In this document: in pieces, positions 9,159-35,596 of the stretch
Position numbering within the stretch: the first letter of the stretch is position 1
Layout: each line of letters opens with the position of its first letter
Assembly (NCBI GenBank): GCA_018333535.1
Contig: JAGXTA010000126.1
Span: 1-40,478 of the forward strand
Source of the DNA: Deltaproteobacteria bacterium
Lineage (GTDB): Bacteria; Desulfobacterota; BSN033; UBA1163
Direction: 5' to 3'
Length of the DNA stretch: 40,478 nt
Made by a program: the position numbers and the translations under genes
Notes under the pieces: generated by a model
Told to the model about the DNA's origin: nothing
What the model saw: the letters and a program-made list of their open reading frames with translations, nothing else
Database searches by the model: none

Positions 9159-9467
9159 ATGGCTATTCTTGATGTCAGTGTCGTTCCCATTGGAACATCG
9201 GGCACGAGCCTCAGCCCTTATGTGGCGGAATGCGTGAGAATTTTGCAGAAGGAAAAGAAGGTCAAGCACGAACTCACCTCAATGGGATCCAATCTCGAAG
9301 GCGATCTGAAGGACCTGATGCGAGTGGTGATGAAAATGCATGAGGCTCCTTTCAAAAAGGGAAGCAAACGGGTGTTGACCACCATCAGGATTGACGACCG
9401 CCGGGACAAGAAAGGGACGATGGAGGGAAAGAAAAAGGCAGTTGAAGTCAAATTAAAGAAAAAATAG
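9159..9467 (+). CDS. MTH1187-family thiamine-binding protein (DUF77)
   Basis: This 102-residue protein matches the small MTH1187/YqgV family, whose members form ferredoxin-like tetramers and are reported to bind thiamine or its precursors. Family features visible are the N-terminal strand with VSVVPIGT, the SLSPYVAEC helix start, HELTSMGSNLEGDL in the middle, and the KRVLTTIRIDDRRDK strand. A GGGAGG ribosome-binding site precedes the ATG. It starts a plus-strand cluster with an MBL hydrolase and hpt. No thiamine riboswitch is seen upstream. Confidence 0.88.
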   Translation: MAILDVSVVPIGTSGTSLSPYVAECVRILQKEKKVKHELTSMGSNLEGDLKDLMRVVMKMHEAPFKKGSKRVLTTIRIDDRRDKKGTMEGKKKAVEVKLKKK

Positions 9468-17150: not shown

Positions 17151-17234
17151 AGAAGTCTCCTTTCTCTAAATTTTCCCTAAAATTATAATAAACACCGCTC
17201 CTTGTCAAATTGAGAGCTCTGAAAAACTACTTTT

Positions 17235-17390
17235 CGCTCTCTGATTACACACCTGCCTGCTGGTAGGCAGGGATTTCAAAAAAATGATTCCACAGATTTT
17301 TCTTTTTTTATCAATGCATTTCTAATCTGTGTAATCGGTCCCTAATCGATGTAATCAGAGATTTCTGGACTTTTTCGGAAATCTCAAATT
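17235..17390. repeat. Interspersed GATTACA-type repeat, copy 1
   Basis: The block begins CTCTGATTACAC and ends near TGTAATCAGAG, giving short terminal inverted repeats. It also contains AATCTGTGTAATC and a hairpin AGATTTC/GAAATCT. Bases 17324-17386 match 26227-26288 with only a few changes. A CCTGCCT/AGGCAGG hairpin at 17252-17271 is embedded in the left end. It occupies most of the 246-base gap between gatB and the Kdo-kinase-like gene. Confidence 0.7.
17252..17271. repeat. CCTGCCT/AGGCAGG palindrome, copy 1
   Basis: Two perfect 7-base arms flank a 6-base loop. The same palindrome type recurs at 23326-23344, 34619-34655 (inside a longer hairpin) and 35581-35596, three of these inside other repeats. 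Confidence 0.7.
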
Positions 17391-23308: not shown

Positions 23309-23325
23309 TGGGAAATATCGAAATC

Positions 23326-23344
23326 CCTGCCTGCGGCAGGCAGG
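23326..23344. repeat. CCTGCCTGC/GCAGGCAGG palindrome, copy 2
   Basis: Nine-base perfect arms meet around a single G. It is inserted within the left arm of the larger repeat. Confidence 0.75.
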
Positions 23345-23451
23345 CGAAATTCGAATTTCGAAACAAATTTTACATGACGAATACATCACCCTTGCTTACC
23401 GGGATGCAGTCGCGAACGATGAAAAATGATTTATAATACCACCTTAGAGGT

Positions 23452-23516
23452 GTCATTCCCGCGAAAGCGGGAATCCAGGTAAAAAGACTGGATTCCGGAT
23501 CAAGTCCGGAATGACG
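23452..23516. repeat. GTCATTCC/GGAATGAC repeat, copy 2
   Basis: The element begins GTCATTCCCGCGAAAGCGGG, has an internal AATCCAG/CTGGATT inversion and ends CCGGAATGAC. It is the fuller counterpart of the element at 306-366. Confidence 0.75.
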
Positions 23517-26121: not shown

Positions 26122-26129
26122 AGATGCGA

Positions 26130-26292
26130 TTACAGTGATTAAAAAAAGATTACACAGATTTAGTAACAAGATTAAATAGATTTAAAAAAGGATTACACAG
26201 ATTTTTTGAATTCTCGATGAATTTCAAATCCGTGTAATCAGTTCCTAATCGTTGTAATCAGAGATTTCTGGGCTTTTCAGAAATCTCAAGAG
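26130..26292. repeat. Interspersed GATTACA-type repeat, copy 2
   Basis: It contains several GATTACA words, AATCCGTGTAATC and a perfect GAGATTTCTG/CAGAAATCTC hairpin at 26260-26287. Bases 26227-26288 closely match 17324-17386. It lies directly in front of the lipoprotein gene. Confidence 0.7.
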
Positions 26293-34618: not shown

Positions 34619-34655
34619 GAGCCCCTTTGTGCCTGCTTGCGGTAGGCAGGGGCTC
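34619..34655. repeat. Hairpin containing a CCTGC/GCAGG palindrome, copy 3
   Basis: The outer arms GAGCCCC/GGGGCTC and inner arms TGCCT/AGGCA are complementary around a 9-base loop. It is related to the palindromes at 17252, 23326 and 35581. Confidence 0.7.
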
Positions 34656-34799: not shown

Positions 34800-34925
34800 C
34801 TTGAGATTTCTGAAAAACCCAAAAAACCTCTAATTACACCGATTAGCATCCGATTACATATATGAGAAAACATTGAGAAATCAAAAAATCTGTGTAATCA
34901 TGCCTAAATCTGAGTAATCAAGAGA
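34800..34925. repeat. Interspersed GATTACA-type repeat, copy 3
   Basis: It has GAGATTTCTGAAAAACCC at the left, several ATTACA words and AATCTGTGTAATCATGCC, matching the internal core of the copies at 17324 and 26227 less completely. A short fourth trace is at 15648-15693, between mtnA and gatB. Confidence 0.6.
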
Positions 34926-35580: not shown

Positions 35581-35596
35581 CCTGCCAGTAGGCAGG
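35581..35596. repeat. CCTGCC/GGCAGG palindrome, copy 4
   Basis: Six-base arms CCTGCC and GGCAGG flank AGTA. It sits inside the right half of the inverted repeat at 35467-35635. Confidence 0.65.

Follow-up and report, generated by a model that had tools for sequence, protein, structure and literature searches.

Introduction

How does one short palindrome come to stand inside several repeats that appear unrelated to one another? The question is raised by a stretch of 40,478 nucleotides of a deltaproteobacterial genome (the window, which here always means the whole stretch), in which a CCTGCC...GGCAGG palindrome of about 20 nt recurs. A first-pass annotation, made from the sequence alone, proposed that this palindrome inserts on its own, in the manner of a very small REP or an intein-like DNA hairpin. 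The palindrome is followed here through its source genome (G000; 4.39 Mb in 192 contigs), other genomes of the phylum, a wider collection of bacterial contigs and viral sequences.

The palindrome in the window and in its genome

The features of the window that concern the palindrome are as follows, all of them unstranded.

17252-17271: palindrome CCTGCCTGCTGGTAGGCAGG, 20 nt, between GATTACACA and GATTTC; absent from the element found at the same place in genome G298
23326-23344: palindrome CCTGCCTGCGGCAGGCAGG, 19 nt, between AAATC and CGAAATTCG; the orthologous site in genome G297 is empty
35581-35596: shortened palindrome CCTGCCAGTAGGCAGG, 16 nt
34632-34650: variant palindrome CCTGCTTGCGGTAGGCAGG, 19 nt, in a GC-rich stretch
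23311-23369: host repeat of the TTCGAAATTCG type, split by the palindrome into a left part (23311-23325) and a right part (23345-23369)
17212-17383: GATTACA host element, MITE-like, between a GatB gene and a gene of the Kdo/WaaP-kinase family
17205-17211: TCAAATT, left 7-bp repeat bounding the GATTACA element, seen in the comparison with G298
17384-17390: TCAAATT, right 7-bp repeat bounding the GATTACA element, seen in the comparison with G298

The three copies reported by the first-pass annotation, at 17252, 23326 and 35581, are thus confirmed, and the related form that it placed within 34619-34655 is CCTGCTTGCGGTAGGCAGG. CCTGCCN{0,12}GGCAGG has three matches in the window, against a mean of 0.01 and a maximum of 1 in 100 shuffles. 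The annotation spoke of the same palindrome at the first three of these and of a related form at the fourth; a palindrome does lie at all four sites, but the copies differ in length (20, 19, 16 and 19 nt in the order given above). The hosts are indeed different, as had been claimed: the GATTACA element at 17252, the TTCGAAATTCG repeat at 23326, a ACAAATTCCAAATT-like stretch at 35581 and a GC-rich stretch at 34632. A repeat search finds the GATTACA and TTCGAAATTCG hosts each repeated within the window, and groups the segment 35459-35492, just upstream of the 35581 copy, with other window repeats at 68%. The copy at 23326 is flanked by two branched-chain amino-acid permease genes. Copies related to the GATTACA element also lie near 26128-26277 and 34801-34920, and a TGTCATTCCCGCGAAAGCGGGAATCCAG-type repeat occurs twice in opposite orientation, at 340-367 and 23451-23478; a junction of similar look, GGATTCC^CGTTTTC, is filled by the palindrome 7 times and empty 25 times in the stretches of G297.

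The consensus of the palindrome is CCTGCCTRCCGGYAGGCAGG, of 20 nt and often 19. This string has 29 matches in G000 and none for its control, the stricter form CCTGCCTN{2,6}AGGCAGG has 53 and none, and CCTGCCN{0,10}GGCAGG has 103, overlapping matches being counted separately, against 1 for the reversed control.

Empty sites at orthologous and paralogous positions

Sites of 51 copies in the source genome and 37 in G297 were sought in stretches of the other genome, and both flanks were found there for six and one of them, respectively; the site at 23326 aligns cleanly, and the intergenic DNA of the rest does not. At 23326, G297 reads GGAAATATCGAAATC|CGAAATTCG without interruption, with 95.6% and 98.3% identity on the two sides, and the source genome has 19 nt at the bar. 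An insert of another kind (GGCGAAGCTTCCCGAAGGGATC, about 22 nt) stands in the same G297 stretch (L085), 9 nt downstream of this empty site.

The site at 17252 occurs in three states across the genomes compared. G297 and G192 read only TTGTCAAATTTCAGAATTGACAA, without the GATTACA element; G298 has this element, bounded by TCAAATT, with GATTGCACA|GATTTC uninterrupted; and the source genome has the element plus exactly 20 nt at the point where G298 is uninterrupted. Around this site G298 is 76% similar to the source genome and G297 85-88%, and because G298 is the less similar of the two, two separate entries of the GATTACA element at this place, or an exchange, may lie behind the pattern. With either history, the GATTACA element occurs at this site without the palindrome. 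The TCAAATT pair is probably the target duplication of the GATTACA element, not of the palindrome; the element itself, palindrome left out, measures about 150 bp and is a MITE-like insertion, present at this place in G298 and absent there from G297 and G192. A larger GC hairpin, of about 33 nt (CCGCCTGCCAAAGAACTTGTTCGGCGGGCAGG type), is present in L156 of G297 and missing at the corresponding place in the source genome (L057, near 9165-9200), where a similar string is found in L019.

The genomes compared yielded no empty counterpart of the copies at 35581 and 34632, and the claim of mobility for copies in the window is therefore limited to those at 17252 and 23326. The earlier proposal that the palindrome inserts by itself into unrelated hosts gains support at these two sites and goes without it at the other two.

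Repeat copies without the palindrome, which the first-pass annotation had suggested looking for, are also found at paralogous positions. Once the palindrome is removed, an uninterrupted copy occurs elsewhere in the stretches of the source genome and G297 for 34 of 51 and 30 of 36 sites, respectively, a match being accepted with at least 19 identities in the 24 positions centred on the junction and at most one gap column; by this strict rule 17 and 6 sites have no empty counterpart. The real element thus gives 64 empty junctions of 87, against 2-7 of 87-88 when a host segment of equal length (about 20 bp), 20-60 nt away, is removed instead. A looser first pass, in which some low-complexity and gapped matches were included, had given 35 of 45. 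Eight junction types were counted in these stretches, and each is empty more often than filled: in those of the source genome, GATTACACA^GATTTC is empty 17 times and filled 8 times, and AAATC^CGAAATTCG 23 and 2 times. The outcome that the first-pass annotation had named as refutation, every host copy containing the palindrome, is thus not what is seen. The filled sites are not all independent, since copies at one host position may travel with the host element. At 17252, at 23326 and in paralogous pairs such as that of L045:1013, the filled and the empty site differ by the element alone, with no target duplication.

A survey made without regard to the palindrome leads to the same unit. Among 1.65 Mb, 51 clean insertions of 12-60 bp were found between repeat copies; all 18 of those measuring 20 nt (15) or 19 nt (3) are the palindrome or a near variant of it, and the remaining 33 vary in both length and sequence. 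The comparisons as a whole show an exact unit of 19-20 nt that interrupts sites found uninterrupted elsewhere, without target-site duplication. Exact excision instead of insertion could explain single comparisons; the pattern of copies suggests that insertion, not exact loss, is the usual direction.

Target site, orientation and nesting

The base next to the element is seldom A. Counted outward from the element at 44 sites of the source genome, 32 of G297, 121 of other genomes and 46 of viral sequences, A stands at +1 in 6%, 6%, 7% and 7% of cases, against a background of 31%, 32%, 29% and 24%, respectively. A purine is found at +2 in 92% of the sites of the source genome and 87% of those of G297, with no such preference in the other genomes or the viral set. 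Orientation can be read from copies with the asymmetric core TACC..GGCA, identical contexts of 8+8 nt being merged. A pyrimidine follows the GCA end in 43 of 47 cases in the other genomes, against 17 of 47 in the mirrored reading, and forward-only cases number 29 against 3 reverse-only ones (p = 2.6e-6); the corresponding counts are 19 against 1 in the source genome and 11 against 1 in G297, copies of one host position being not fully independent in these counts. The eight viral cases are uninformative. Hairpin loops are not preferred as targets, as the copies lying in loops (13 of 50, 8 of 31 and 34 of 119) are within the range of shifted controls, and GC skew reveals no replication-strand bias in the three sets.

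The palindrome is also found within itself. Nine of 285 distinct copies (51 from the source genome, 37 from G297, 127 from other genomes, 48 viral and 22 from genome G338) are nested in another one, with 16-19 matching letters out of 20; eight of them share one offset, 9|11 or its mirror, and the ninth has offset 10, with no nested copies among the 37 of G297 or the 48 of the viral set. The offset fits the target, because it falls at AC^CG or GC^CG within the palindrome. The nesting rule missed the case of L051, the outer copy of which is a 19-mer. In G338, one stretch (L399) has a single copy in AACCACA^GAGGTCACAGAG, and another (L392) has a second copy within such a copy. The sequences support an insertion that is exact, oriented and free of duplication, at C^Y-like sites and sometimes into the palindrome itself. 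The asymmetric target to which it would be oriented is roughly YC^YR in the genus; in other genomes it is less strict, C^Y.

Genomic context

Open reading frames of at least 90 amino acids contain 8 of 51 copies in the source genome and 8 of 37 in G297, whereas random positions fall in such frames in 84% and 82% of cases. The placement of the copies (43 of 51 in the source genome lie outside such frames) shows that most of the palindromes are intergenic, some of them within other repeats or within the palindrome itself, and the likening to an intein is not supported, given this avoidance of genes. Gaps between convergent, divergent and tandem genes hold copies at about the expected frequencies.

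In four genomes (L204:2127, L241:7670, L243:67 and L251:5992), tRNA-like fragments have the palindrome at the position of the D arm. Genuine tRNA genes were considered as targets on account of these and rejected: ARAGORN gives no intact tRNA on the joined flanks, and the four therefore look like fragments. An Rfam search of the window returned two tRNAs only. In the source genome, copies of the palindrome at L018:12247, L023:4324 and L026:9293 have another GC-rich unit (CCGCCCTCGGTCGGGACCGGGG) at their centre, the unit of L026 holding a further palindrome, and at L020:6045, L038:8034, L043:9076 and L072:1456 a longer palindrome has the same ends (CCTGCCTGCG..AAGCCGCTTCGGCGAAGGCAGG type) and may represent a sister family.

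Two explanations without a mobile palindrome can be weighed on these data. That the palindrome belongs to the host repeats and was lost from the empty copies would agree with its occurrence at the same position in several GATTACA copies of more than one species. This is very improbable, as the palindrome interrupts numerous hosts unrelated to one another as well as other copies of itself, has no flanking direct repeats that would permit exact loss by slippage, and leaves more empty than filled junctions at every type counted. The idea of a functional RNA hairpin or an intrinsic terminator kept by selection, to which the intergenic position and the near-perfect GC-rich stem might point, deserves even less credence. 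T-runs after the hairpin are not beyond control (0/51 in the source genome, 0/36 in G297 and 4/119 in the others), 5 of the 43 intergenic copies of the source genome lie between convergent genes, which equals expectation, and the insertion is clean when set against empty sites. Compensatory changes in the stem number 0 in the source genome (control mean 1.5), 0 in G297 (0.4) and 2 in the others (8.8), a set that had been selected for exact matches.

Distribution among genomes and phyla

Genomes of the family hold from 0 (G007, G111) to 116 copies (G192), and such a range among sister genomes is counted in favour of mobility; G158, of a distant family of the same phylum, holds 55. The exact 20-mer occurs in 17 of 297 genomes of the phylum, the source genome included, and in at least 119 stretches of a wider bacterial contig collection. 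Among the 80 matches listed with titles are Nitrospiraceae, Chloroflexi, several groups of Patescibacteria, Omnitrophota, Bacteroidetes, Planctomycetales, Verrucomicrobia, Elusimicrobia, Stahlbacteria, WOR-3 and others, the Bacteroidetes among them including isolates such as Winogradskyella, Olivibacter and Agriterribacter. An assembly artefact is argued against by the presence of isolates among the carriers. Fifty carrier genomes, all picked for holding an exact match, have 1-210 copies each (at least 5 in 39 of them and at least 20 in 16), and the reversed control has 4 forward matches in all 50 together. The palindrome is also present in 42 stretches of IMG/VR. The spread between phyla has probably been horizontal.

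How the palindrome may move

Ordinary DDE transposition normally leaves a target duplication, and is unlikely here because none is seen. The palindrome is probably a non-autonomous mobile element that consists of the hairpin alone. Less surely, it would be moved in trans by an enzyme that cuts and rejoins a single strand carrying the folded hairpin, acting like the HUH (Y1) transposases of the IS200/IS605/TnpA-REP kind. A single-strand step of this type would lead to the fixed orientation and to the absence of target duplication.

The search for a RAYT-type transposase, advised by the first-pass annotation, has two sides: a set of Y1 genes is present, with 25 Y1_Tnp matches in G000 (several of them fragments), but it is not tied to the palindrome. 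Y1 and palindrome counts are correlated in 14 genomes of the family (rho 0.64, p 0.013, uncorrected for phylogeny) and in 17 genomes (rho 0.54, p 0.026). G007 has neither. The palindrome is absent from G140, G258 and G111, where Y1 matches number 7, 8 and 2; in G237, 5 such matches accompany 53 copies. A full copy lies within the flanks of about 1.5 kb at 1 of 36 Y1 loci (L167 in G279, 68 bp after the ORF). Another copy, in L390 of G338, follows a Y1 ORF at a distance of 90 bp. In L168, L169, L119 and L164, all from relatives, Y1 genes of about 223-230 amino acids lie between other inverted repeats, such as AATTAGGGACACTTCCCTATTT and GGGGACAGGCTAC/GTAGCCTGTCCCC. No autonomous copy of IS200/IS605 type with the ends of the palindrome was found in the stretches examined. 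The tags GTAG and CGTC each adjoin the hairpin on 0 of 102 sides in the source genome and 0 of 72 in G297; in the other genomes they do so on 2 and 6 of 242 sides, respectively, with 1-5 in shifted controls, and neither exceeds such controls in the source genome or G297.

An ordinary REP moved by the cognate RAYT (TnpA-REP) of the genome would likewise give intergenic palindromes of 20-50 nt in tens of copies, and the Y1 matches of the genome, their correlation with palindrome counts and the copies close behind the Y1 ORFs of L167 and L390 would suit it. We regard this as improbable, given the missing tag and the single full copy near 36 Y1 loci; the two Y1 proteins with a nearby copy are 26% identical over 116 amino acids, and the Y1 genes of the genus carry other inverted repeats. 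The membership among REPs suggested at the outset is thus not borne out. A mover other than an HUH enzyme, be it another recombinase that leaves no duplication, a reverse-transcribed hairpin RNA or copying of the hairpin in replication or repair, is unlikely too, though a more serious contender. The want of a Y1 gene tied to the palindrome and the wide phyletic range speak for it, as does a parallel in yeast mitochondria, where GC clusters have been suggested to spread partly via RNA (PMC4478555). Against it, no specific enzyme or intermediate is indicated.

Movement in trans by an HUH-type enzyme being the preferred reading, a bolder one can be entertained tentatively: the 20-nt palindrome might be a mobile element of many phyla, among the smallest known, made of the hairpin only, spreading between phyla and moved by a hitherto undescribed enzyme or cell process other than a cognate RAYT. 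Its mobility, if confirmed, would make the palindrome one of the smallest mobile elements observed in bacterial DNA. If a bare hairpin of 20 nt moves, synthetic oligonucleotides could be used to test how small a transposable element can be and how little its enzyme needs to recognise. An identical sequence in so many phyla would trace either DNA exchange or a widely shared enzyme. The palindrome would also serve as a clean insertion marker, and would account for some of the 'noise' between the genes of metagenome-assembled genomes.

Comparison with known systems

Among the papers listed from the open-licence literature, none was recognised as describing the palindrome, and among the matches listed for its strings none concerns bacterial repeats, as judged by title and the start of the abstract. 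The palindrome differs from a DDE-type MITE in lacking a target-site duplication at 17252 and 23326, and from an intrinsic terminator in lacking a T-run. Small elements derived from IS200/IS605 make no target duplication and insert strand-specifically beside a short target; the insertion of the palindrome, oriented, duplication-free and beside a short target, is like theirs.

REPs and REPINs with their TnpA-REP (RAYT) are, like the palindrome, small intergenic palindromes in many copies, and the palindrome agrees with them in size, location and copy number (53 in G000). TnpA-REP is reported to cut beside the hairpin at CT or CA, and at CC with a changed guide (PMC8266576); these CT and CA sites are close to the C^Y sites of the palindrome. 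REPs tagged with GTAG or CGTC have been surveyed, in a report whose main text contains neither CCTGCC nor GGCAGG (PMC3733652). Unlike REPs, the palindrome has no such tag and no consistent link with a RAYT gene, and is a single bare hairpin, exactly inserted and near-invariant over many phyla.

The nearest bacterial parallel is offered by the small dispersed repeats of cyanobacteria. These are reportedly about 20 bp long, dispersed and thought to be mobile, as Elhai et al. are said to have described in 2008. The palindrome shares the size and the dispersal, whereas it is near-perfect and is found outside cyanobacteria among the titles listed. The cyanobacterial repeats are also referred to in another paper (PMC2884548).

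Two organellar systems come close in behaviour. The GC clusters of yeast mitochondria (GC42) are described as GC-rich palindromes that spread in AT-rich intergenic DNA and between species (PMC4478555), as the palindrome appears to do; they have putative target duplications (AG), whereas the palindrome is bacterial and without duplication. In sponge mitochondria, repetitive hairpin-forming elements are stated to invade intergenic regions with a scattered distribution (PMC2800124). The palindrome resembles these elements in both respects, but they are organellar and diverge between invasions, whereas the palindrome is one nearly constant 20-mer.
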